IMG/VR virus record: IMGVR_UViG_3300028025_004546
Location: 1-27,622 of that record
DNA length: 27,622 bases
Origin: a virus
Strand: one strand, 5' to 3'
The stretch's first letter is position 1, and each line of letters opens with the position of its first letter. A program made the translations under genes and the position numbers. The notes under the pieces were generated by a model. The model ran no database searches and was not told the DNA's origin. It worked only from the letters and a program-made list of their open reading frames with translations. Below are positions 8,829 to 27,622 of the stretch, piece after piece.

Positions 8829-10991
8829 TTAGAATCCAAAAATAATTGCATAAGAAATGTAGTCTGCTTTAACAGACTGATCCAAATTATTTAGCGAAAC
8901 AATACCATCCACAACCAGAGATCCTAAGTTGTAGAATGATAGAGCTGGAACATCAGTAACTAAACCAAGATCTTCTGATAAAGTTACAACCAGATCAGTC
9001 ACTAATCCCAAATCTGATTGAGCATTTGCTCCAAATATTGCAGAATCTACAGCACCGCCAGAACTTGTTGCCCATTGAACACCAGTTCCAGTTGACTGAA
9101 GAACTTGTCCATTAGTTCCAACACCACCACCAGCAGTAAGCGTGCCAGTTAATATTGCTGAAGAAAGAGTTTTATTGGTAAGAGTCTGAGTGCCTGTTAG
9201 TGTAGCAACAGTAGAATCAATGGCAACAGTGACTGCACTAGATCCATTAAACGATGTACCAGTTAATCCAGTACCAATTGTTAGAGCATTAGTAGTATTA
9301 GCAGTAACAGTAATATTAGCAGAACCATTAAATGATACACCATTAATAGTTCTAGCAGTTGTTAGCGTATCGGCAGTACCAGCTGTAGCCACATTTAAAT
9401 TTGCTACACGAGTTGTAGAGGTAACAGCTAATGGTGCTGTACCTGTTGCTACAGTAGATGTTAATTGCCCTGCTACTGATAACGATCCTGTTAAAGTACG
9501 AACTGCGTTAGAAGTTGTAAGAATTTCAGTTAGCGATGTAGTATCTATTGCAGTAAGAGCACTAACTTGCTGTAAATAATTATAATTGCCACGCTCTTGA
9601 ACTTTTAAAGACCATCCAATATTTTGAATTTGGTTTGTGGAAGAGTAACCTATTACAACGAGACCAGTTGCAGTATTTTCATAAACACGAACACGAATTA
9701 TTTGCCCAAGATTTGTTATTTCTTCTTCGAATAACTGAAATGATTTAGAAGGAAGTGTATTTGATCGTACATGTAAAACAAATCTAGTAACACCACTCGT
9801 TGCTCCAGTAGCACCTCGAATTTCGCCTATAATTGAAATGTTATGAGAGTCGCCATTAAGAGTAAATCTACCTATTTCTTGAGGTAATGTTGGGGTATGT
9901 GTAGTGCTAAATCCAGAAGCATAATCTCGAACAAATGTATTGGGACCTCCAGTAAGAATTTGTCCTGGAGCTGCGAGTATATTATTAACAGTAGTTGTGC
10001 TAGAAGCACCAGAAACTGCAGAGCCAATAGCAATATTGGTAGTAGAACCTGATAAACCAGATGTACCAATGTTTAGTGTCTTGGTAGACCCTGATGCAGT
10101 TGCACCAGCTTGGATATTAGTTGTTTGGCTTACTGTGGATTGACCTACAGTTAGTGTTCCAGTTTGGCTTGTTCCACCTAAACCTAATGTGGTAGCACCT
10201 GTTTGAGCAGTACCAATACTGATGTTACTAGCAGTAGTAGAAAAATTAGCAGAACCAGTAACAGTTAATCCTGAAGATGCAGTTAATCCCGTTATTGTTG
10301 GTGATGCAGATAAAACTACAGAACCTGATCCAGTAACCGCAGCAAATTCAGTATATTCTGCATCCCAATCTGCTGCTGTATTTAATGTAGTGCCAATACA
10401 CATACATGTAACAGTAGTTCCTGAAATTACAGTCGTAACTAGAGATGCGCCAAAAGAGGTTATAGTTAATTGACCACTAGAAGCATTTTCAATACTATAA
10501 GTAACACCTGTTGATAGTGTGCTTGTAGAAGGTAAAACAATTGTGTGGTTAAGCGAACCTGTAAATCTTTGATAGTGATTGCTTGCAGCAGTTAATGCAG
10601 TTACTCCACCTGAAGTTACAGTAGTAGTATATCCGTCTTTAACATTAGTTGCACTTAGTATACCATTAACAGTAAGATTATTTGATGTAACAGTAGAATT
10701 AAATGTAGTTGGAGAAGCGACAGTAATATTACTATCAGACTGACCCAGAGTTAATGTTTTACCAGTTAATGCTCGAATATCACCATTTTGTTCAAAAACA
10801 ATATCAACATTATTAACACCATCGCCGATATAAACATCAGTCGCAGTGTTACCTAATGATAAGTTACCCCCAGTATTGGAAATATTAAGATTGCCAGAAG
10901 TATCGAGTTGAATGAATGCATCAATGTTCCCTGCATCGTCTTTGAAATCTATTAATCCAGTAGCTGGTGTTATAATTACATTTCTTGGCAT
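8829..10991 (-). CDS. Fibre-like structural protein with central globular insert
   Basis: This 720-residue protein begins MPRNVIITPATGLIDFKD. Near residues 43-90 it has a GNTATDVYIGDGVNNVDIVF stretch and LTGKTLTLGQSDSNI. A Thr/Ser/Gly-rich shaft follows with repeated GSTTNIAIGSA and TTNIQAGA units. At about 345-485 there is a more complex, probably globular region (PQEIGRFTLNGDSHNISIIG, VTRFVLHVRSN, GNYNYLQQ). The repetitive shaft then resumes with STVATLTGTQTLTNKTL, and the C-terminus has two SDLGLVTD/EDLGLVTD units before a hydrophobic YISYAIIFGF end. No S74 chaperone is present. The gene follows the 819-aa gene with one base between stop and start. A role as fibre or decoration protein is likely from composition and context; the substrate is unknown. 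Confidence 0.75.
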   Translation of the reverse strand: MPRNVIITPATGLIDFKDDAGNIDAFIQLDTSGNLNISNTGGNLSLGNTATDVYIGDGVNNVDIVFEQNGDIRALTGKTLTLGQSDSNITVASPTTFNSTVTSNNLTVNGILSATNVKDGYTTTVTSGGVTALTAASNHYQRFTGSLNHTIVLPSTSTLSTGVTYSIENASSGQLTITSFGASLVTTVISGTTVTCMCIGTTLNTAADWDAEYTEFAAVTGSGSVVLSASPTITGLTASSGLTVTGSANFSTTASNISIGTAQTGATTLGLGGTSQTGTLTVGQSTVSQTTNIQAGATASGSTKTLNIGTSGLSGSTTNIAIGSAVSGASSTTTVNNILAAPGQILTGGPNTFVRDYASGFSTTHTPTLPQEIGRFTLNGDSHNISIIGEIRGATGATSGVTRFVLHVRSNTLPSKSFQLFEEEITNLGQIIRVRVYENTATGLVVIGYSSTNQIQNIGWSLKVQERGNYNYLQQVSALTAIDTTSLTEILTTSNAVRTLTGSLSVAGQLTSTVATGTAPLAVTSTTRVANLNVATAGTADTLTTARTINGVSFNGSANITVTANTTNALTIGTGLTGTSFNGSSAVTVAIDSTVATLTGTQTLTNKTLSSAILTGTLTAGGGVGTNGQVLQSTGTGVQWATSSGGAVDSAIFGANAQSDLGLVTDLVVTLSEDLGLVTDVPALSFYNLGSLVVDGIVSLNNLDQSVKADYISYAIIFGF

Positions 10992-10992
10992 T

Positions 10993-13452
10993 TTATTTTA
11001 TTCTTCCACCAATTCTAATTTTGGATTCTGTTAGAGAACTACCAATACCAACCATTGCTTGGTTAGATTGACTACCATTAATTGAAGAAAATGCTGATAC
11101 CGCATATGGTTTATCCAATAACACAGTAATATTTTTCATCCAGCATCCTTCAGAAGAAGTTGCAGAGTCTACATGAACACCTATGTTTATATAACGAGAA
11201 AATGCCACTGAAGCAATTGTTAATTCTTTTGTTTCATAAGCACTTGTTGCTGCAGCACTAAACTGAACTGCTTGAGCTCCACCAGCCATCCAAGTGCTGT
11301 ATTGTCCTCCAGCATTGGCAAGTTGATTTACTCCAACTCCAGAAACAACATCTCTTGCTTCGAATCTTGGATAAGTACCAGAGAAACTTGGTGCCAATTT
11401 AATTTGCGCTTTGGCTCTTACAGTAACTCCTGCTGGAACAAAAACTGATTCAAACCAACCACTTCCATAGTCGCTGCCGTCTGCTATCCAATAAACTCTC
11501 CAAGCATCTTCGGCAGCGTCCCAAAATCTTGCAGAAAGATAATTTTGTTGGTAGATAGCATCGTATTCCATATTATGCTCGATAACATTTCCAGACACGC
11601 CATTATGTCCTCTGTCAATATGACCACCATGATAATTTCCTCTAACTTGAAGGTTATTAACTAAATGAGAATAACCACTAACATAATTAAATATAGAATA
11701 TATTAGAGTGTTGGGACCGTATGCATCTGAATCCATACCCCTTCTGTTTCCTGTATGTTTGTGTTTATAAGAAGCTCTATAAAAACCACTAACAAAATTA
11801 AGGTACTCGGTTCCATCAGAAATATAGTGATGAACTCCTAGATTACTATCATAGAAGTTTAATCTACCACCTCTTTCTGAACGAGAAACATAAACATAAC
11901 CAACTTCAGCCCATTCACTAGCACCTTCTATTCTTGGTCCAAATGCGTTGCTACCAACTGCTATACTGTTGTAAAGACATAAACCTTCACGATAGTATAA
12001 ACCATATGAAGAATTAAATCTACCTTGAACATGACAACATCTTATCTGGTCATATCTACCGTAAATCCAAAATCCACCCCAATCACGAGTAGAGTTTGAA
12101 CCTGTCATTGTAATGCCCTCTAACCAACTATTTTGACTGTGTGCTGGAACAGTATTTGTTAAAGTAACAGATAAACTCACATTGGCTTTCCAAGTACCAG
12201 CACCAAGATATAATCCTCCTTCTGCTTGCCCCTGACTACTACCTGCATACTTTAAATATACATCTTTAAAAATTATTGCTCTGGAATAATTGGTGCCACC
12301 TGGTTCAATATACACTCCATAATAATCTATATTTGGAGTAACTGGTTCAATAACTACATCTCGTGTCAAACGATTTACTAATGCGCCAGAAACCACATTG
12401 TAACCAATAGCAGCTGTAAGGGTAATAACATTTCCCGCAACTGATGAAATGGTATGTTTATATCTTGGACCTGGAGTTTCATTTCCATAAGCATCATCGG
12501 CATAATCAGTTGTTCCACCTGCCTCGCTTCTGGCTTCAATCCAAATATCATTACCAGCAACAAACATATTCGCATTGGCAACTGTAATTGTTGTTGCTGC
12601 AGCCAATGAAGATGTTGTAGTAACAGTAGCACACTTTCTTATTTTATCACCAGTTGCGTGAATTTTATCTGAGCCTGTTTCATAAACAGTTAATCCTGTT
12701 ACTGAACCTGTTACCGAAGCAGATAGTGTTAATGTATGAGAAGAATATTGAATTGCATTGATTGTGTGTATATTTCTATTTACACCCGTACCAAAAATAA
12801 TTATTTGACCAACACGGAATACTTTTGAATTGTTAACAACTAATGATGTCCCAGAAGCAGAAACGATTGTAGCTTCTGGACCAACAAATTGTCTAAAGTA
12901 AACTGTATTACCATCTATATCGTGAATCCAAAAACCTTCATCTCTAATAGTTGTTGCACCAGCATTTCCTGCTTGCGCAGTTGTATTATTATAAACTGCA
13001 AACCATTCACCCACTGCAAAATTTGTAGCGGAAGTAAAAACAAAACTTGTTGCTCGTTCATTAACACCTGATGCTAAAGTAGTGGTTGGCATACCGTCAC
13101 TACCTTCCATAATCACATTTGCGCCAGTTGATGCTGTTCCATAAAGGATATGTGAAGACGCAGCAGTTCCTCTAAACTGTAAGGTATGTCCTGCTCTAGC
13201 GTGATATGTGCCTGCAGTTCTTACACGGAGTCTACCATTCATTCTAAGTACGGTAGATGTAGCTAACTGTGTTTGTAAAATTCCATAGATATCACTATCA
13301 TCAAATCCATTGGTTACAGGTGTCGCTACATTGTATGTTACAGTATGTCCAGTATTAATAATAAAGGAATCATTATCAACAGGTACAACTCCACCTACCC
13401 ATGTAGAAGTGGCATTAAAATTTCCAGATTGTGCTGATGTTATTATTGCCAT
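10993..13452 (-). CDS. G8-like / beta-helix virion protein, possible glycan-acting tailspike
   Basis: The N-terminus of this 819-residue protein, SGNFNATSTWVGGVVPVDND followed by IINTGHTVTYN (residues 9-41), resembles the G8-type start of secreted beta-helix proteins. Residues of about 45-250 continue as a beta-strand-rich region. About 400-640 reads like a right-handed parallel beta-helix: short strands with regular Gly, Asn, His and aromatic residues (WLEGITMTGSNSTRDWGGFW, GHIDRGHNGVSGNVIEHNME). The C-terminal 150 residues look like a separate beta domain. Such architecture is common in phage tailspikes that bind or cut polysaccharide, but I cannot identify catalytic residues, so enzyme activity is not claimed. 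The ATG overlaps the end of the 49-aa ORF and has only a weak ribosome site, which suggests coupled translation. Confidence 0.75.
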   Translation of the reverse strand: MAIITSAQSGNFNATSTWVGGVVPVDNDSFIINTGHTVTYNVATPVTNGFDDSDIYGILQTQLATSTVLRMNGRLRVRTAGTYHARAGHTLQFRGTAASSHILYGTASTGANVIMEGSDGMPTTTLASGVNERATSFVFTSATNFAVGEWFAVYNNTTAQAGNAGATTIRDEGFWIHDIDGNTVYFRQFVGPEATIVSASGTSLVVNNSKVFRVGQIIIFGTGVNRNIHTINAIQYSSHTLTLSASVTGSVTGLTVYETGSDKIHATGDKIRKCATVTTTSSLAAATTITVANANMFVAGNDIWIEARSEAGGTTDYADDAYGNETPGPRYKHTISSVAGNVITLTAAIGYNVVSGALVNRLTRDVVIEPVTPNIDYYGVYIEPGGTNYSRAIIFKDVYLKYAGSSQGQAEGGLYLGAGTWKANVSLSVTLTNTVPAHSQNSWLEGITMTGSNSTRDWGGFWIYGRYDQIRCCHVQGRFNSSYGLYYREGLCLYNSIAVGSNAFGPRIEGASEWAEVGYVYVSRSERGGRLNFYDSNLGVHHYISDGTEYLNFVSGFYRASYKHKHTGNRRGMDSDAYGPNTLIYSIFNYVSGYSHLVNNLQVRGNYHGGHIDRGHNGVSGNVIEHNMEYDAIYQQNYLSARFWDAAEDAWRVYWIADGSDYGSGWFESVFVPAGVTVRAKAQIKLAPSFSGTYPRFEARDVVSGVGVNQLANAGGQYSTWMAGGAQAVQFSAAATSAYETKELTIASVAFSRYINIGVHVDSATSSEGCWMKNITVLLDKPYAVSAFSSINGSQSNQAMVGIGSSLTESKIRIGGRIK

Positions 13453-18565: not shown

Positions 18566-18589
18566 TAAAAAACCCACCGAAGTGGGTTT
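18566..18589 (-). terminator. Intrinsic terminator after the propeller-fibre operon
   Basis: On the minus strand AAACCCAC (18589-18582) pairs with GTGGGTTT (18577-18570) around a UUCG tetraloop, followed by TTTATTA. The stem is perfect, the tetraloop is an exceptionally stable type, and the U-rich tail is directly adjacent. It lies about 20 bases past the stop of the 707-aa gene and ends the upstream transcription unit. Confidence 0.9.
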
Positions 18590-18608: not shown

Positions 18609-20732
18609 CTATAGATCTGTTCTGGTATAGTTGAAAGAACCATAACCAACCTGAGAAGGATTACTTGCTGGATCCCAACCATAGTACCAAGAAAATCCAT
18701 TATGAGCATTTACATATCTGTTATTGCTAGTGATAAACGCAAATCCAGATTCGGATGCTCCTCCAAGTGGACTAATCATAGAAACTGGTTCGTGGAATCT
18801 TGGTTGCATTGGGTTATATGATGATCTCTGGAAATGCTCCCATGGTAATCTATTTCCGCCACGAATATGTTGTGCTGTTGGATCTGTTCCACCATTATTA
18901 CCAACACCTCTATGCATGTTACCACCACTACCACCACCTGTCCAAACTCTATTGTCAGAGTTGTGATACATTATTGCAACATAACCATCATGACCAAATT
19001 TAGAAATATATTTGACATCGGTCATATTGCCCATATGGATTGGAACTGGTGTTTGCGTATTCGGATTGTTGTATGGGTTATCACTAACACACTCATCATA
19101 GTTCAAATGTTTTCTATATGTGGCGAATTGTCCATAACCATTGTCGCCAACCAGATACATAACTCCAGTACCTTTTTCTTTCATAACTATGGCTGATGCC
19201 ATGGCTCCTCGGTTAATTACCCAAAACTCTTCACAATTTCTTGAAACATCAATCAAATTTGTAAGTTGAGAGATTTTAGAACCGATACCTAAAGCATTTC
19301 TTCTAATCTCAAATAATCTTGCCATTGGAGAAAATACACCAACATAAGTTGTGTTTGGATTACCCATACCATACATAGATCCGCCACTCTGGCCAAAGTA
19401 ACCAACCATATGAACAGTACCATCATTAGTTAATGCTACGGCATTACCATATGATCCTTGTCCCTGTGCTATAAATTTTTTAAGTCCACCAAATTTTGCC
19501 CAAGGATATTTAACTCGTTCTGGACGATACTGATTTATGTAGTGTCCCGTACCTAATTGTCCGTAACCATTATAACCCCAAGAGTAAATTTCACCATCTT
19601 CAGTTTGAGCATAAGAAGACTGGTAGTTATAACCAGACATCCAGCAGTCAACAATTTTCTTATCGTGGAAATATTCCTGAGGAATTACTGTTGGGTCGGC
19701 ATAATTAGATGTGTTACCATGTCCCAAGCTACCATAACCATTATAACCCCAAGTCCAGACTCTTCCTGTGTTATCTAAAGCGAAACAAGAGTGGGTATCT
19801 GTCTCGTCAGAATTTGGTCCCTTAGCACTATGACCTGCTTTAATAATATGAACATCTCTTAATATGCCAGTTCCTCTAGCACCTGATCTACCGACTCTTC
19901 GGAAATATTTGTAATCATTAGTAGTTCCATCACCATTTTGTCCATGTCCACCATAACCTGTGTGATATAGTTCACCATTGTCAAACAGAGCAAATGTAAA
20001 ATTAGATGTTCCAGTAAGTTGAATTAATTTTGGAGCACCACCAGTAATTGATGTTCTATATCCATCAATATAATCCCAGAAATCAAAACCACCATGTTTA
20101 GTATATTGATAAGTTGATGATGCGTTAGAATTATCAGAAGCATACCAATTGTCTCTTTCGCCAAGACCTTTTCCTAAACTACTCCAATCACGACCAATAA
20201 AAGATAACTCATAGTTACCATTAATTGTTTGCATCTCTTTGTATCCTGGTGCTCCAGCTTCATTAGATTCGCACATATTGCGAGTCCACCCCATTGGAGG
20301 ATACAATGCAAATTGTAAATGTTTTTTCGATCTATCGCGAGCAGAATCTTGTGCAATTTTTATCCACTTAGTAGTGAGTGCGCCATTTTCATAAATTGGA
20401 TGACCACCAAAGTTATTAGTGGTACACTGATAAAAGTCGCCATTAAATCTAACTACGTCGCCAACATAGTGACGATCTTTATATGCCCAATCACCTTTAT
20501 AAATAATTCCACCAGCAATCATTGTCCAGTTAGTTGTATCAACTCCTGGTTTTACTTCTTGACCAAATAAATTATTTTCCGAGTGGTATGTACTGTTCAT
20601 TACAAAAGCTGTATTGTTAATACGAACAGTATCGTTTATTTTATAGATGGTTCCTTCATTCCACTCACCCATCCAATTTTGTTTTAATTGGGAGTAATCG
20701 AAATCACCATTTAAAGATCTTGACAGTGGCAT
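18609..20732 (-). CDS. RCC1-type beta-propeller fibre protein, paralogue 3 (707 aa)
   Basis: Two small aromatic modules open the protein: GEWNEGTIYKINDTVRINNT (22-41) to W69, and GDWAYKDRHYVGDVVRFNGD (80-99) to W123. Both have the W...Y..GD-V-...Y.C layout of carbohydrate-binding modules such as CBM5/12. From about 240 come seven RCC1-like strand-loop units near residues 252, 321, 378, 436, 521, 592 and 669. The clearest are GRVWTWGYNGYGSLGHGN and GEIYSWGYNGYGQLGTGH; the sixth and seventh are degenerate. Seven units are what RCC1 propellers have. There is no S74 domain. Last gene before the terminator at 18566. I infer an external receptor-binding fibre; enzymatic function is neither seen nor expected. 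Confidence 0.82.
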   Translation of the reverse strand: MPLSRSLNGDFDYSQLKQNWMGEWNEGTIYKINDTVRINNTAFVMNSTYHSENNLFGQEVKPGVDTTNWTMIAGGIIYKGDWAYKDRHYVGDVVRFNGDFYQCTTNNFGGHPIYENGALTTKWIKIAQDSARDRSKKHLQFALYPPMGWTRNMCESNEAGAPGYKEMQTINGNYELSFIGRDWSSLGKGLGERDNWYASDNSNASSTYQYTKHGGFDFWDYIDGYRTSITGGAPKLIQLTGTSNFTFALFDNGELYHTGYGGHGQNGDGTTNDYKYFRRVGRSGARGTGILRDVHIIKAGHSAKGPNSDETDTHSCFALDNTGRVWTWGYNGYGSLGHGNTSNYADPTVIPQEYFHDKKIVDCWMSGYNYQSSYAQTEDGEIYSWGYNGYGQLGTGHYINQYRPERVKYPWAKFGGLKKFIAQGQGSYGNAVALTNDGTVHMVGYFGQSGGSMYGMGNPNTTYVGVFSPMARLFEIRRNALGIGSKISQLTNLIDVSRNCEEFWVINRGAMASAIVMKEKGTGVMYLVGDNGYGQFATYRKHLNYDECVSDNPYNNPNTQTPVPIHMGNMTDVKYISKFGHDGYVAIMYHNSDNRVWTGGGSGGNMHRGVGNNGGTDPTAQHIRGGNRLPWEHFQRSSYNPMQPRFHEPVSMISPLGGASESGFAFITSNNRYVNAHNGFSWYYGWDPASNPSQVGYGSFNYTRTDL

Positions 20733-20751
20733 TTAATTTACCTTTTTCCTA

Positions 20752-21390
20752 TTATACTTGTTCTTCTGTTGTAATTGCGGTTCCAGATGATTCAGCAGCC
20801 AATCGTTTGGCTTCATCTTCAAATACTTTAGCGAGAGCTTCCAAATCTACCGTATCTGGCTCAACAGTACCAGCTTTTACTTTTTCTGCAGCAGCTTCCG
20901 CTCTAGCATATTCCTCATCAGCAAGTTGTTGCGATTTTAATAATGCAGACTCTGGAATTGTATGCAAAGAAATCAAATCTTTCGTATGAATTTCTTTGTC
21001 GTAAGCTGGTAATCCAAGTTTATTTAGATACTCTGGATCTTCTTTATATTTATTTGCAATAGTTCCATTATACAATAGAACTGTATTTGTAAAATTACCA
21101 TCTAATTCAGTTTCAATAACAAAATCATTATCATCAGTTGGTTCTAACATCTCTTCTGTCATATCCTCATGTACTGAATCATATCTTTTTTTATCGATAT
21201 TAATTAGATGAATATTTTCTTTATCAAATTCTGTTGGATAACGATTATCTAAATCACCTTTAAAATGCATTACTCCATTTATTTCTTCATCTTTTTCCAA
21301 TATTTTTTGTAAAGGAAAATTTAAAGAAGGAAAGAATGTAGTAGCATCATTAGTTTGAGATACGATTTTTCTAGTTTTAGTGATTGCCAT
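20752..21390 (-). CDS. Acidic coiled-coil protein of unknown function (212 aa)
   Basis: I do not recognise a family. The N-terminus is MAITKTRKIVSQTND; residues 25-110 are highly charged with hydrophobic strands (GVMHFKGDLDNRYPTEFDKE). About 145-200 is Ala/Glu/Lys-rich and probably helical or coiled-coil (LADEEYARAEAAAEKVKAG, LEALAKVFEDEAKRLAAES). The tail is GTAITTEEQV. Composition differs sharply from the Thr/Ser/Gly-rich fibres on either side: many Glu, Asp and Lys, no signal peptide and no membrane segment. It lies nine bases after the 885-aa propeller gene and 19 bases before the 707-aa one, with an AAAGGT ribosome site. An assembly factor, adaptor or small virion protein are all possible. 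Confidence 0.75.
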   Translation of the reverse strand: MAITKTRKIVSQTNDATTFFPSLNFPLQKILEKDEEINGVMHFKGDLDNRYPTEFDKENIHLINIDKKRYDSVHEDMTEEMLEPTDDNDFVIETELDGNFTNTVLLYNGTIANKYKEDPEYLNKLGLPAYDKEIHTKDLISLHTIPESALLKSQQLADEEYARAEAAAEKVKAGTVEPDTVDLEALAKVFEDEAKRLAAESSGTAITTEEQV

Positions 21391-21399
21391 AGTAAACCT

Positions 21400-24057
21400 T
21401 TACATGAAATTAGTTACTGACATAGGCGCATACTGAGGCTCGCCTTGGCCATTTAGATTATAATTGTAATCTCTACCAGCGGTCAGCACCTCACCTCGCT
21501 CAGTCAACCAGTAAGCAGTAACTACGTGACCAGAAGTTCCATCATAATCTCCATTACCCCAAAGATCTACAATACGATTTCCACAACTACCAGCTTGACC
21601 AATTTCAGAAAGTGCGCCAAGATCTTTGGCAAACATTATTCCATACATAGGACTTGGCATTAGAACACGAGAAAAACCAGCTTGAGTGCTACTAGTTCCA
21701 TTTTGCTGATTGTATGTATTGTTATTTCCTACATAACTTCCATGTCCAACACCACCCTCACCATACTGATTCCAACCATGAGCGTAAGATATACCATCTT
21801 TATCTAACGCATACATTGTATTTCCGCCTGAACGACCCTGACCTGAAATCTGAACAATATCAGTCATAGCACCTTTTGGACCATAGTACTGCACTGGAGT
21901 TGTTGCGTTTGATGTGGAAGTACCATATTCATAGTGACCACCATGACCGCATCCCCATAACTGTAAAGATGTGTCGAGGAAATATGAGTGACCAGTTCCA
22001 CCATCAAATCCCCAAATATTTTTAATACCACCACCAATTCCCCAACCTGCAGTGGAAGAAGTTCTTCTTAGTGGACCAGAAGCGTTACCATCACTAGTCG
22101 TATTATTAGTGCCTAATTGCCCCTGATCGTTATAGCCCATTGTCCATACATGTCCCTGACCATCAAGAACCATAATCCATTCTCGGTTTTCTTGGGATGG
22201 TGTAACAATTTTCTGAATACCACCATATGTATTCCAATTAATAGGCACTTTATATGGAGCAGCGCATTGCGAAGCTGAAGCCATAACACCAGAGGTAGTA
22301 AATCCAAGTTGTCCGTAGTTATTTCTACCCCAACCCCACAAATTACCTGCTTCGTCTAGAGCATGAATAGAATCCTGTTGAGTAAACATATCAATAATTC
22401 TGTTACCCTCAAAGAAAATATCTTTCTGTAGACACATTGGCGAGCGAACATTGTTTGTTCGGTCGGCTACTCTCATACCAGTTGATAAGTGATTTTCTGG
22501 ACCAATACCGCACTGACCATATCCGTTATACCCCCACATCCACAATTCGCCAAACTCATCTAATGCAGCATACCAATTAGCTGAGTTTCTAGAATTTGAA
22601 GCACCACCAGCAAGTTTAACAATGGCACGATTTCCGAATCTTTGTCTGCCAAGTTCAATCATCGAAGAAGAATAGTCTGAGTCTTCACCAGTACCCAGAG
22701 ATGACGAACCACTAGTACCACCAACAAGAACAGTGCCATATGATGTTAGTGAAGCATGATTAGTCCATTGAGCAAGATTTTGAGTCAATCTTGGTGCTGA
22801 ACCTTTACGGAAATTGTCAGTAAACGACTCATTTCCATAGTGGCGAGTTTCATCAGAATAATATTCATTAAAATGTTGCGCCATTTCTTCGCCAGCAAAC
22901 AAACGATAACCATCGTATTGGCCAGGACTACCCATCCCATAGTAATTATATCCTTTACCGATTCTGTGGCCACGACCATCTGATCCAAGGGAAATAGATC
23001 CACGATATTTACATTGCGCTGGTGCGATCCATGAATTCCAAGACCAGGTCCAAGCAGCTAATGGATTAGCATCTGGATCTTTGTGAGTTGCTGGAATAAA
23101 CCAAGGAATTGAAGAGTATGCGCAAGCAACTGTTCCAGTTCCAGTCCCAACTGAAGTACAAATAAATTGTTCGCCAACTACATAATTGAGGCTGGCTCCA
23201 GTTAAATTAAAATTAGTATTTCCAGTAGTAACAATAGTATATGTTGTTCCTGGAATCATTGCTGTAGCGTTTACAACTGTAGAATTACCAAAAGTTGGTT
23301 TGGTAATATAAGGATGTCCTCTCCAGTTGAATGGGTTTTTATTAACACCAATAATGATTCTCTCGTGTGGTAGTGCTTCATTACCAACTAAGAAAGTTTC
23401 CCAGCATCCCAAGTAATCAAATAAAGGATCTACTGCTCTTGTGAAACGAGCAGCAGGGTCAGGAGAGCCATGCGCTTGTGTACAAATATAACTTTGATTA
23501 TTTCTTATTACGATTTCGCCAGGAGTATACGATCTACATCTATTCCACTGTCCAAAACTTGTATAATTGTTGTCATCACTTAGTGTATCACTAAAAACAT
23601 CCCAGTCAACATTGTTTAAACATGTTTCATACATACCAGCCATTCTTCGTGTGCCGATAGTAGCTGTATGAGCTCCCAAATTTACATTTGAGTTAATCGC
23701 CTTACTAACAGTAATGCTTACTGTAGTTGGTGATAGTTGAGTCATTGAAACAATTTTACTATCTGGCTCTAACCATTTAGAGTATACATATAAATTTCCC
23801 AGAGGAGCAAAGGTATTTAAATTACTAAACGAGTATGGTAATGTAACTGTAAAGGTGCTGCTAAATGCTGGTATTGAAGTAATACTTACTTCCAAAGGTT
23901 CCATACTATAAATTGGTGTATTTACTTTTGCAGTTTCATTTTTGTAAATAAAACTCCTATTCCTGAACATAACAATATCACCTTGTGTATATGTTGTTCC
24001 TGAACTGTAATCACCTTTGAATACAAGTTTAATTTTATCTAATGTTAATGTGGTCAT
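21400..24057 (-). CDS. RCC1-type beta-propeller fibre protein, paralogue 2 (885 aa)
   Basis: This is the largest of the three related proteins. Aromatic modules are at about 13-48 (GDYSSGTTYTQGDIVMFRNR) and 169-202 (WNRCRSYTPGEIVIRNNQ then SYICTQAHG). About 120 residues between them form an extra beta region. Residues 263-314 are an inserted module, IPGTTYTIVTTGNTNFNLTG to GTGTGTVACAYSS, of a kind widespread in marine phage structural proteins. Seven RCC1-like units follow near 439, 501, 569, 633, 696, 753 and 853, with GELWMWGYNGYGQCGIG and GNLWGWGRNNYGQLGF the clearest. No S74 chaperone. The ribosome site AAGG is rather far (about 11 bases) from the ATG. Probably a receptor-binding fibre or tip. 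Confidence 0.82.
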   Translation of the reverse strand: MTTLTLDKIKLVFKGDYSSGTTYTQGDIVMFRNRSFIYKNETAKVNTPIYSMEPLEVSITSIPAFSSTFTVTLPYSFSNLNTFAPLGNLYVYSKWLEPDSKIVSMTQLSPTTVSITVSKAINSNVNLGAHTATIGTRRMAGMYETCLNNVDWDVFSDTLSDDNNYTSFGQWNRCRSYTPGEIVIRNNQSYICTQAHGSPDPAARFTRAVDPLFDYLGCWETFLVGNEALPHERIIIGVNKNPFNWRGHPYITKPTFGNSTVVNATAMIPGTTYTIVTTGNTNFNLTGASLNYVVGEQFICTSVGTGTGTVACAYSSIPWFIPATHKDPDANPLAAWTWSWNSWIAPAQCKYRGSISLGSDGRGHRIGKGYNYYGMGSPGQYDGYRLFAGEEMAQHFNEYYSDETRHYGNESFTDNFRKGSAPRLTQNLAQWTNHASLTSYGTVLVGGTSGSSSLGTGEDSDYSSSMIELGRQRFGNRAIVKLAGGASNSRNSANWYAALDEFGELWMWGYNGYGQCGIGPENHLSTGMRVADRTNNVRSPMCLQKDIFFEGNRIIDMFTQQDSIHALDEAGNLWGWGRNNYGQLGFTTSGVMASASQCAAPYKVPINWNTYGGIQKIVTPSQENREWIMVLDGQGHVWTMGYNDQGQLGTNNTTSDGNASGPLRRTSSTAGWGIGGGIKNIWGFDGGTGHSYFLDTSLQLWGCGHGGHYEYGTSTSNATTPVQYYGPKGAMTDIVQISGQGRSGGNTMYALDKDGISYAHGWNQYGEGGVGHGSYVGNNNTYNQQNGTSSTQAGFSRVLMPSPMYGIMFAKDLGALSEIGQAGSCGNRIVDLWGNGDYDGTSGHVVTAYWLTERGEVLTAGRDYNYNLNGQGEPQYAPMSVTNFM

Positions 24058-24075
24058 TTATTTTTTTCCTTAACC

Positions 24076-26235
24076 TTATTGGTTCTTTAATTTAGTCATG
24101 ACATTCCAATAAGAACCTCTATAGTTAGCTCCGCTAATGTTATAGTCATTTGAATAACCAGTATTATATACTCTACCTGTAGATAAATCTACATAGAGAG
24201 CAAATTTGTTACTTGAGTAACCAGTTGGGTAATACTTCCAATAAGAACGATATGCGCTTTCCTGGATATGTGGAAATAACAGATTATTTTTCAATCGATA
24301 GTTTTCAGAAATATTATCTGGATCTCTCTTTTGCCTTTGGTTATAAGAATCATTAAATCCAGAACCCCATCCTCCACCATTATTTGAATATCCGCAGTAG
24401 TACCATTCACCATCACTTCTCTTCACTGCTGCATTAGTATAAGAAGAAGATCCAGTGTTTGAAGCAAAATCTACCACATTGGTTAGAGCTGCTCCTGCTC
24501 TAAATTGAGTTTGTTGTAAAGTATTATACTGAGTCGTATTTGCTTGTCCTACCGATAACTGATAATATCCATTATATCCGCAAGAGTAGCAAGTATTGCT
24601 ACTATCAGAAGTTCCTCTGGTAACATACATCGAACTATATTGACCACCAAACATCCAAGCATTATGACAGTTTGTTATTAAATCTCCACTTGGACTAGTA
24701 TTTTGTGGCGATGATGTAGTTACAGTAGCAGAAACACCAGAGTATCCTCCAGTATATACTTTTAGTGGGAAACATACACTATATGTATGATTATGTCCCA
24801 ATGCTCCGTAGCCATTGTATCCCCAAGTATATAGCGTACCATCTCTTCTAATCATCAACATAGATACTACACTGCCACCATTGGCTGCTCCACCAGTATT
24901 GAATTTTTTAATACCAGTTGTTGAAGTAGTACCCCAAGTATTATCTCCATTATCAATTTTAATTGCTGTTAGCGAAGTTCTTTGCGAAGTATCACCAACA
25001 CCAAGTTGACCATATCCATTATATCCAGCAGCATACATTTTTCCCTGATCTGTTAGTAACCAGAAACAACCATAACCACCACCAGTTGCCCAAATTTCAA
25101 TAATTTTACCATTCGTTGTTTGATCAAAAGAAACTAGAGTTGGGGAATAGTAGTCGCTTGTATTACCTTGACAAAGTTGTCCATATCCATTGTATCCCCA
25201 AGAATATAATTCACGGGAATCATCTGCATTACGAACTAATGCATAGTTAGATTTTGTACTGTTCGTACCACTGGCTGATGATGCAATTCGAATAACTTTT
25301 TTATTGCGAAGAATTGTAGTAGCATTAGATCTATTAATATTAGCATAACCAGATTGAGTAAAATTAGTATACCCATTGGTATTTCCGTGTCCACTTCCAC
25401 CTTGGGCTTGATATCCACCAGCGTGAACTTCTCCATTGTCAAATAGAACTAACATTCCAGAATCTAAACCACCATCGCTTTCAACTTGAATTACTTTTGG
25501 TACTGGTTGCACACCATTAATGGCAGTAGTAGGTAAAGAACCATCGAACCAACTTAAATGTGCAAATTGACATTCAGTAGGAGTCTGATGAGTAGTTCCA
25601 GTTCCACCATTACTTAAACTTGAACTTGTATTTCTTCCATAAGTCATTATTGTATGTCTTCTGGTAATATACTGTATAGCACCATTACCAGCTAAGTCAA
25701 TTCCAGGAGTTTTAAACTCACCAAAACTGTCGCCCATACCAACATAACTAACCCCAGGAACTGCCAATGCATATGCATCCCAGACACTCTTATGAGTTGG
25801 AGCATAACCTTCGTTTGGTCCAAAAAGATAAGCAAACTTATCTCTCATTGTTCCTTGAGAAATCATTCTCCACTTATCTGTGGTTACCTCAGGAGTTTGA
25901 GAATTTGTTCCAGCAGTATGAGCTACAGTGCAAACATATGTGTTTTGTTCTAAGTAGTTGTGATGATCGTTATATGGTAGAACTTTTTTATAAGTTACGA
26001 TATCGCCAATTTTATATGCAGTAGTCCAAAGCCACTCTCCCGCAAAATAAGTTCCTCTACCATAATGATACCAGTTGGTGAGATCTTCTTGTGGGTTTGT
26101 TGAAGAAGTATGACTTGTAGTACAAAAATAGAAAGTATTTTTATAAGTTACAACATCATCTTTTAAATATGCAGTCGAAACAACCCACTCACCTCTTGGA
26201 TTGAATCTTAACTTACCTAGAGTTACTTGTGCCAT
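24076..26235 (-). CDS. RCC1-type beta-propeller fibre protein, paralogue 1 (719 aa)
   Basis: The two N-terminal modules are the clearest of the family: GEWVVSTAYLKDDVVTYKNT then FYFCTTSHTSS (15-45) and GEWLWTTAYKIGDIVTYKKV then TYVCTVAHTAGT (66-110). Each ends at a Trp (W55, W122). The C-terminal 460 residues carry seven RCC1-like units near 264, 342, 395, 463, 546, 607 and 685, including ELYSWGYNGYGQLCQGN, KMYAAGYNGYGQLGVGD and TLYTWGYNGYGALGH. The propeller appears complete and ends within about 20 residues of the C-terminus. The frame starts ten bases after the 110-aa stop, with TAAGGT as ribosome site. RCC1 is best known from eukaryotic nucleotide exchange factors; here the propeller is most likely only a binding scaffold on a virion fibre (inference). 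Confidence 0.85.
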   Translation of the reverse strand: MAQVTLGKLRFNPRGEWVVSTAYLKDDVVTYKNTFYFCTTSHTSSTNPQEDLTNWYHYGRGTYFAGEWLWTTAYKIGDIVTYKKVLPYNDHHNYLEQNTYVCTVAHTAGTNSQTPEVTTDKWRMISQGTMRDKFAYLFGPNEGYAPTHKSVWDAYALAVPGVSYVGMGDSFGEFKTPGIDLAGNGAIQYITRRHTIMTYGRNTSSSLSNGGTGTTHQTPTECQFAHLSWFDGSLPTTAINGVQPVPKVIQVESDGGLDSGMLVLFDNGEVHAGGYQAQGGSGHGNTNGYTNFTQSGYANINRSNATTILRNKKVIRIASSASGTNSTKSNYALVRNADDSRELYSWGYNGYGQLCQGNTSDYYSPTLVSFDQTTNGKIIEIWATGGGYGCFWLLTDQGKMYAAGYNGYGQLGVGDTSQRTSLTAIKIDNGDNTWGTTSTTGIKKFNTGGAANGGSVVSMLMIRRDGTLYTWGYNGYGALGHNHTYSVCFPLKVYTGGYSGVSATVTTSSPQNTSPSGDLITNCHNAWMFGGQYSSMYVTRGTSDSSNTCYSCGYNGYYQLSVGQANTTQYNTLQQTQFRAGAALTNVVDFASNTGSSSYTNAAVKRSDGEWYYCGYSNNGGGWGSGFNDSYNQRQKRDPDNISENYRLKNNLLFPHIQESAYRSYWKYYPTGYSSNKFALYVDLSTGRVYNTGYSNDYNISGANYRGSYWNVMTKLKNQ

Positions 26236-26245
26236 TTATTATACC

Positions 26246-26578
26246 TTAGTATGTTGCAGTTAATTTGCCTGTTGTTTGATCGATGGCAAGTATTAATTTA
26301 TTAGAGAAAAACGCAGAAAGAGCATTTTCAATATTAGTAGTCGAAGTGCTTGCTTCACTACCAAGAATTTGGTTATGGATTAAATTACCATTTGCGTCAA
26401 CGGATAAGATGTTATATGCTGATACTGAGATTGGAGACCAAAGAGTACCATCATATATCTCGGTAATAGATAAAGTAGTATTATAGCGAACCATTCCCTG
26501 CACAGGGACATTCGGACGCTCGGCAGTAGTACCAACACCTATGGTAACATATTGATCGCCTAGGACTGTAGCTGGCAT
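26246..26578 (-). CDS. Small virion structural protein, 110 aa
   Basis: The N-terminal half has VTIGVGTTAERPNVPVQGMV then RYNTTLSITEIYDGTLWSPI. The G-T-x-x-x-RP-x-x-P-x-x-G-M-x-RYNT...EIY-x-G-x-W pattern is a small beta module common in phage fibre and structural proteins. The C-terminal half (ILGSEASTSTTNIENALSAF then LAIDQTTGKLTATY) is low complexity. The ATG overlaps the stop of the upstream S74 fibre by one base (TAATG) and has a strong AAAAGGAG ribosome site inside that gene's end, so its translation is likely coupled to the fibre. Perhaps an accessory or tip protein of that fibre; this is inferred only from position. Confidence 0.75.
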   Translation of the reverse strand: MPATVLGDQYVTIGVGTTAERPNVPVQGMVRYNTTLSITEIYDGTLWSPISVSAYNILSVDANGNLIHNQILGSEASTSTTNIENALSAFFSNKLILAIDQTTGKLTATY

Positions 26579-27622
26579 TATTTAACTCCTTTTAAGTCTT
26601 GTATTTCTCTATTTAGGTCTTTTATTGCTTCTATTAAAAGGGGAATTATCTTATCGTATTGCACTGTCAGATAGTTTTCACCAGACCGAGAAATTTCTGT
26701 ATTTTCAAACATAACAAGATCAAATGGGGCTGGTTTAACTGCTTCTGGCAAAACCCTTTTTACATCTTGGGCTATGACACCAACTTCATTTTGTTTCTTG
26801 TAACCTAATTCTTCTGCAATGGTATTTGGTTGATATGTAACACCACGAAGCGACATTACCTTTTCTAGAGCATTTGTAATTACTTGAATGTTTTCTTTCA
26901 ACCTCTCATCCGAGTAGTATGATGTAATTTGATTAGTTGCTCGTATTTCCCCAGTAGTTCCAGAAGCAGCAGTTCCAACACCTAATGAACCAAATTGTAA
27001 ATTAGAAGAAGTGGAAATATCTTGAGGACTTGATAAGGTAATACTGCCAGAAGCATTGGTAACTGTTATTCTATTTGCTGTTCCTGTTAGCGTAGTACAA
27101 GCGTATAGTCCAGCAGAAGTTCCAATTAAAATTGATCCATTACCAGGAACAGTATTTGTTCCCGAACCACCTTGCGCAGGATGTAATGGTGTAGTTAAAG
27201 TTAGAAGTTGAGCTTGTATTGAACCAGCAGAAAATCCACCATCTAAATCGCGACGAACTACTTTGTTTGCAGTATTTGTGCTAGTAGCATCTGATAGTTC
27301 TAATTTGTAGTCGTTTAATTTGATAAAATTGGTGTCAATTTCAACGCTAGAAAGTGGAGAACCTTTTACAGTAATTCCATTACTATTGATAGTATAAGAA
27401 GACGATGTTACTGTAACAGCTGCATTACTGACTAAAGTGATTGTAGTATTACTATTGACACTATTAACAGTACCAATGGTAACACCAGCTCCAGTCTTTA
27501 ATACCTGTCCAGGAACAACTTCAGTTAAGAATTGCGTGCCAGAACCTGTAATAGTTAGACTGGAAGTATTGGAAGATATCGACCCAGTTCCGTTGGTGAT
27601 ACCTGTGGTTAATCTAGTTACG
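26578..27622 (-). CDS. Large fibre protein with S74 chaperone end (5' end cut by window edge)
   Basis: The frame is open from the window edge to the TAA at 26578 and gives 347 residues; a shorter frame starting at a TTG at 26901 would split the conserved YYSDERLKENI motif and is not a real start. The visible part is a Thr/Ser/Asn-rich shaft (VVPGQVLKTGAGVTIG, TANKVVRRDLDG), then GVGTAASGTTGEIRATNQIT leading into the S74 domain. The Ser of YYSD and the Lys of RLK keep the Ser-x4-Lys spacing. NEVGVIAQDVKRVLPEAV and an amphipathic LNREIQDLKGVK end close it. The segment is clearly related to the end of the 536-aa fibre beside gp13. It likely trimerises and self-cleaves as other S74 fibres do. Confidence 0.9.
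   Translation of the reverse strand, partial: VTRLTTGITNGTGSISSNTSSLTITGSGTQFLTEVVPGQVLKTGAGVTIGTVNSVNSNTTITLVSNAAVTVTSSSYTINSNGITVKGSPLSSVEIDTNFIKLNDYKLELSDATSTNTANKVVRRDLDGGFSAGSIQAQLLTLTTPLHPAQGGSGTNTVPGNGSILIGTSAGLYACTTLTGTANRITVTNASGSITLSSPQDISTSSNLQFGSLGVGTAASGTTGEIRATNQITSYYSDERLKENIQVITNALEKVMSLRGVTYQPNTIAEELGYKKQNEVGVIAQDVKRVLPEAVKPAPFDLVMFENTEISRSGENYLTVQYDKIIPLLIEAIKDLNREIQDLKGVK

Follow-up and report, generated by a model that had tools for sequence, protein, structure and literature searches.

The propellers of RCC1, UVR8, HERC and RPGR proteins and of BLIP-II are seven-bladed. For the T4-like viruses that infect cyanobacteria and SAR11-type bacteria, which are very abundant, the majority of receptor-binding proteins have yet to be identified. 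Proteins of the RCC1 family have been reported from several phages: the RCC1 protein gp1 of GAP32 was found by mass spectrometry and 121Q has many copies (PMC5259590), phAPEC6 has eleven RCC1 proteins that were read, from their family, as working on the encapsidated DNA (PMC7247149), and mass spectrometry of W70 virions identified three consecutively numbered RCC1 proteins, again read as DNA-acting from family (PMC11370258). Here we analyze a 27,622-nucleotide stretch (hereafter, the window), IMG/VR virus record IMGVR_UViG_3300028025_004546, a 27.6-kb fragment with genes read on the minus strand, in which three RCC1-type genes (A, B and C) and a small open reading frame (ORF) between B and C make up a cassette. 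We consider it fairly probable that the products of this cassette form the receptor-binding part of the tail fiber apparatus of a T4-like aquatic phage. A preliminary description of the locus had termed a tandem trio of RCC1 phage adhesins an unusual receptor-binding scaffold, which overstates the case, given the many phages with RCC1 proteins and the consecutive three in W70 virions. RCC1 propellers on phages are already known; what is new is the fixed three-part cassette, its exchange with an adhesin-like gene and a probable eight-unit propeller.

A, B and C are tandem genes of 719, 885 and 707 amino acids (aa) at 18609-26235, exactly as first delimited and all on the minus strand. The RCC1 repeats attributed to them are present in all three, with PF00415 scores (A 50, B 45, C 60 bits) over the curated cut-off of 21.7 bits, and the RCC1-like-domain model PF25390 matches with E = 2e-27 (A), 1e-33 (B) and 6e-26 (C), under its strict 150-bit cut-off. 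The three proteins also match phrog_4219, the family of W70/121Q-type RCC1 virion proteins (E 2.6e-17, 4e-14 and 1.1e-14 for A, B and C). The nearest solved proteins to A by sequence are UVR8, HERC2 and RPGR, and the best solved relatives overall also include RCC1. Structures were modeled with AlphaFold2 (AF2) for A and C, the fold evidence for B being its sequence. Confidence is moderate (mean predicted local distance difference test, pLDDT, 70 for A and 71 for C; predicted TM-score 0.68 and 0.76), and both models find their best matches among RCC1-family propellers, with a Foldseek E of 8e-19 to UVR8 and a VIA Z of 25.4 for A (310 residues aligned, root-mean-square deviation [rmsd] 4.1), and a VIA Z of 23.9 for C (328 aligned, rmsd 4.2); matches to the propeller made up most of the structural search lists. 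Profile-level homology links B to both A and C from the N-terminal modules through the propeller, and A and C are 26% identical overall.

The locus had been described as encoding seven-unit propellers. Seven units are indeed detected in each of A, B and C by a repeat hidden Markov model (HMM) built from the family itself, with the C-terminal units weak, but a degenerate extra unit upstream makes eight the likelier count. In A, the repeat HMM also detects a partial upstream unit at 7.7 bits, a score equalled by 0 of 296 shuffles; at single-sequence level it gives no signal for this unit in B and C. When the stretch upstream of the first clear unit is compared profile to profile (hhalign, one comparison per protein), a near-full unit aligns with E values of 4e-4 in A, 3e-3 in B and 1.4e-2 in C, against 0.4-0.66 for control N-terminal modules. 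The AF2 models of A and C form strands in blade-like order in this upstream region, with low to moderate confidence. Among the best non-RCC1 structural matches of both models are the WD40 proteins FBXW8 and ODA16, whose propellers have been described as eight-bladed (PMC9507964 and PMC12633730, respectively); they align over 310-325 residues across the whole propeller region (rmsd 4.1-4.5), and seven-bladed RCC1 chains match in two registers, about one unit apart. These comparisons suggest that A, B and C probably carry eight RCC1-type units each. The models of A and C have an eight-bladed appearance, and we favor, with somewhat less assurance than we place in the receptor-binding role, an eight-bladed ring, the exact closure of its blades being a prediction.

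The second structural element of the description, a pair of aromatic N-terminal modules, holds at full strength for two of the proteins. Residues 1 to 80-130 of A, B and C constitute CBM_5_12-type modules, with CBM_5_12 (PF02839) over its cut-off in A and B and a match below it in C (E = 0.0035). The tail fiber family phrog_9851 matches the N-termini of A (E 2.7e-14) and C (E 2.9e-7), that of B being supported by PF02839 alone. In tblastn searches, the N-terminus of A resembles those of annotated tail fibers from S-CAM1, P-SSM2, S-SSM7 and Pelagibacter phage Mosig, and the CBM_5_12 Pfam module of the trio is also present in the S-CAM1 and Mosig fiber proteins.

Along the minus strand, the window runs from tail and fiber genes through neck genes to the large terminase, and it encodes gp13, gp14, gp15 and S74-type fibers besides the terminase. 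The terminase shares 49% identity with its counterparts in Synechococcus phages and in Methylophilales phage Melnitz-3, and by this measure the phage is T4-like, akin to the Synechococcus phage/Melnitz-3 group and not close to any isolate; the phage collection contains no DNA near-identical to the window. The phage carrying the trio is Kyanoviridae-related, aquatic and infects bacteria, and the trio genes are situated in its fiber/neck cluster.

The replacement of a glycine-rich gene of Mosig by the trio is the observation that points most strongly to an adhesin role. In contig 3300027791_000009, which is close to Mosig (gp23 80.7% identical), one flank of the trio holds homologues of the Mosig 113-, 82-, 569-, 126- and 115-aa proteins and of its ~1240-aa fiber in the same order, and the other holds ho1, pcyA, gp13, gp14, gp15, terminase, sheath and tube, again in the same order. 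Between these flanks, Mosig encodes a 516-aa Gly_rich_2 protein (Mosig_00062), a 136-aa ORF and then oxygenase-type genes, and the contig encodes A, B, the small ORF and C. The Gly_rich_2 protein thus occupies the same site as the trio, between the ~1240-aa fiber and the ho1/pcyA genes, but belongs to an unrelated sequence family: no trio protein matches the Gly_rich_2 domain (PF21722), and no Gly_rich_2 gene is found in 12 trio contigs. From its type and position, the Mosig Gly_rich_2 product would be an adhesin.

The cassette is conserved in number and order. Scanning IMG/VR returned 289 stretches encoding relatives of A, from which 76 loci were kept, one per contig. Of the 76 contigs, 60 have the complete series A, B, small ORF, C, many of the incomplete loci being truncated by the contig end, and all 60 complete trios have a small ORF of 129-242 aa between B and C. 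In a tree of 27 contigs, sequences cluster by gene position and not by genome (A in one group, B in two, C in two), with 4 label changes compared to a shuffled mean of 44.4. Because gene position determines the clade, the trio is, on the evidence of the tree, an old paralogue set inherited together, and the fixed order and co-inheritance suggest three non-interchangeable parts of one structure. Two lineages are apparent. The first includes cyanophages, since Photo_RC family (psbA/psbD type) genes lie in three of its trio contigs (L015, L019 and L022, with two such genes each) and part of one lies in a fourth; the second includes the Mosig-like contig. Of 18 trio-relative contigs checked, 11 have a gp23 capsid gene. 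Other contigs from the scan show different arrangements: two (L133, L137) encode 20-38 RCC1 units within single proteins of 1217-2505 aa, which may consist of several consecutive propellers, and four (L095, L123, L131, L135) encode several stand-alone RCC1 proteins of ~375-402 aa, mostly with seven units and W70-like in size. The RCC1 gene of S-SRM01 adjoins sulfotransferase and glycosyltransferase genes, an arrangement different from that of the trio.

The trio has probably been deposited before, unnamed. UniProt entry I3ULP0 matches C over its full length (TM 0.78, 28% identity) and I3ULP3 is 33% identical to A over 420 columns; together with I3ULP2, they are probably the same trio, from one viral record by accession order. 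A tentative link of I3ULP0 to Synechococcus phage metaG-MbCM1 was dropped, no RCC1 gene being annotated in the first 50 kb of that phage. We found no description of the A-B-small ORF-C cassette in cyanophages or pelagiphages in open papers, subscription papers lying mostly outside the search.

The variation among the top loops of A, B and C, taken in the preliminary description as a sign of different receptors, is uninformative, because A and C are so divergent overall that everything varies. Between close orthologues, a bias toward one propeller face is confined to C. Between two near-identical contigs (L010 and L011), C differs at 24 bases, with 16 nonsynonymous and 2 synonymous codons changed and 6 of the changed codons carrying multi-base differences, compared to 0.25 expected; the small ORF beside it is identical and a 111-aa ORF has synonymous changes only. 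Across two close pairs, the changes in C concentrate on the face formed by the AB/CD loops of the modeled propeller (28/480 vs 1/250 sites, p = 9e-5), a pattern that is no more than suggestive of diversification on one face. Gene B of L010 (L010:9662-12234) has a two-base length difference relative to L011 and reads 708 aa, a frameshift or assembly error.

We put forward the following reading of the locus. A, B, the small ORF and C would form an operon-like cassette for the receptor-binding part of the tail fiber apparatus, in which aromatic modules at the N-terminus, as in cyanophage and pelagiphage fibers, would anchor each trio protein and an RCC1-type beta-propeller at the C-terminus, most likely with eight blades, would serve as a binding disc. 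As old paralogues, A, B and C would each have a set role that the others cannot take over, probably within a single joint structure that is predicted to be part of the virion and to bind a host receptor, and the small protein may help assembly as a putative assembly factor or chaperone. A fiber/adhesin role is likely and well supported as a prediction. The adhesin proposal of the preliminary description is thereby retained as regards RCC1 propellers on fiber-type proteins in a T4-like structural region, and abandoned as regards the seven units and the use of paralogue loops as receptor evidence.

Several observations weigh against this reading. Selection on A, B and C is mostly purifying between the window and a related contig, L009 (ratio of nonsynonymous to synonymous substitution rates, dN/dS, ~0.1), and A shows no face bias (p = 0.47), nor does it between the window and L009. 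In five-way comparisons over greater divergence, changes are concentrated on neither face of the propeller (p = 0.90 and 0.32), and the notion of a hypervariable face as a general rule was dropped on these null results. The face test was chosen after seeing the data and depends on strand borders that AF2 predicts with moderate confidence, the mean pLDDT of the models being just ~70. RCC1 proteins in the virions of other phages have been interpreted as DNA-condensing, and tblastn searches of the phage collection with A, B, C and three divergent members found no isolate with the whole trio.

The main rival is a structural role, in which the trio would provide fiber, baseplate or whisker parts making no receptor contact and the S74-type or ~1240-aa fiber would be the adhesin. 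The strong conservation of number and order, the low dN/dS and the S74-type fibers encoded in the window would all fit such a role, which we nonetheless regard as unlikely: the trio replaces the Gly_rich_2 protein while the ~1240-aa fiber is retained in both phages, and C accumulates multi-base nonsynonymous clusters. Three paralogues side by side could also be local duplicates, each acting as an independent adhesin for a different receptor, as originally envisaged; the depth of the paralogy (26% identity between A and C), the clustering by position across 27 contigs and an order and small ORF fixed in 60 contigs, unlike shuffled receptor arrays, make this very improbable. A role for the RCC1 proteins inside the virion or in DNA condensation, of the kind proposed for phAPEC6 and W70, draws on the family name, on those published suggestions and on the PHROG category of phrog_4219, phrog_7220 and phrog_16766 ('DNA, RNA and nucleotide metabolism'), but it has the least to recommend it here, given that the N-terminal modules are those of tail fibers, that the trio lies in a fiber cluster and replaces an adhesin-like gene, that changes in C between close phages gather on one face, which is unexpected for an internal DNA-binding protein, and that the published DNA role was itself derived from the family name.

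Compared with these, the receptor-binding cassette remains our preferred reading. Its most ambitious form, a widespread and obligate three-part heteromeric adhesin of eight-bladed propellers (A, B and C with the small protein), swappable as a whole cassette for a glycine-rich adhesin, is a tentative proposal that we would not yet back; if true, phage RCC1 proteins annotated as DNA-condensing would largely be surface adhesins.

Table 1. Features of the A-B-small ORF-C locus, with positions in the window.
Feature	Position	Strand	Evidence or remark
Gene A, 719 aa fiber-type protein: two N-terminal modules, degenerate RCC1 unit, seven RCC1 units	24076..26235	-	
A, N-terminal aromatic modules (CBM_5_12-like)	25855..26211	-	PF02839 over cut-off; phrog_9851 tail fiber E 2.7e-14; tblastn S-CAM1, P-SSM2, Mosig
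A, degenerate N-terminal RCC1 unit, probable eighth blade, residues ~165-222	25570..25743	-	7.7 bits, 0/296 shuffles; hhalign E 4e-4
A, seven recognizable RCC1 units, residues 248-719	24079..25494	-	
Gene B, 885 aa; architecture as A plus inserted module	21400..24057	-	
B, N-terminal aromatic modules and linker	23398..24033	-	PF02839, 2 stretches
B, 56-aa insert, residues 263-318	23104..23271	-	Confined to the window's closest relatives
B, degenerate N-terminal RCC1 unit	22870..23040	-	hhalign E 3e-3
B, seven RCC1 units	21403..22779	-	
Small ORF, 212 aa, between B and C	20752..21390	-	
Gene C, 707 aa fiber-type protein	18609..20732	-	
C, N-terminal modules	20352..20678	-	phrog_9851 E 2.9e-7; AF2 pLDDT ~75-91
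C, degenerate N-terminal RCC1 unit, probable eighth blade	20094..20321	-	AF2 strands 138-141, 164-169, 174-179, 209-213; hhalign E 1.4e-2; not significant by unit HMM
C, seven RCC1 units	18612..20027	-	
Intrinsic-terminator-like hairpin, TTCG loop and T run, directly behind C	18570..18589	-	

The features of the locus are listed in Table 1. A and B are separated by 18 bases, B and the small ORF by 9, and the small ORF and C by 19, and since a terminator-like hairpin comes after C, the four genes look like one operon. The small ORF could not be assigned to a known family, its PHROG search giving only two weak single-member matches and the 212-aa protein of the window itself having no PHROG; a proposal that the B insert is a module common to other window proteins was not confirmed by sequence comparison. 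Elsewhere in the window, an additional fiber-type gene at 4323-5933 matches long-tail-fiber PHROGs, and another at 26578-27621 carries a Peptidase_S74 (chaperone of endosialidase) domain; the homologue of the latter is the most diverged among the genes compared between L010 and L011, with 88.5% DNA identity and 33 nonsynonymous codons. Two large ORFs at 8829-13452 (720 and 819 aa) have no PHROG match at E 1e-5.

With genes of fixed number and order that take the place of an adhesin-like gene as a block, the cassette is a concrete target for host-range studies, and the trio offers a testable alternative to the usual DNA-condensing annotation of phage RCC1 proteins. The trio shares fold and repeat motif with the RCC1, UVR8, HERC and RPGR propellers and with BLIP-II but probably has eight units instead of seven blades, on phage fiber-type proteins. 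With the tail fibers of S-CAM1, P-SSM2 and Mosig it shares the N-terminal aromatic modules, and with Mosig also the fiber cluster, whereas the fiber proteins of S-CAM1 and Mosig have no RCC1 match. The Septuagintavirus coliphage W70 (W70_237-239, phrog_4219) and the RaK2-like jumbo phages GAP32, 121Q, PBEC04 and phAPEC6 also encode RCC1-family proteins, several per genome in all but GAP32 and identified by mass spectrometry in the virions of W70 and GAP32, but the W70 proteins are stand-alone and of ~40-43 kDa, and the fiber N-termini on proteins of 707-885 aa, the probable eighth unit, the fixed A-B-small ORF-C order and the adhesin site are particular to the trio. PollyC gp12 and Littlefix gp88 of Pseudomonas phages are, like the trio, fiber-type proteins with an RCC1 propeller; each is a single gene with another anchor, T7 tail-fiber-like in PollyC (PF03906 E 6.7e-5, just under cut-off), in phages that are not T4-like.

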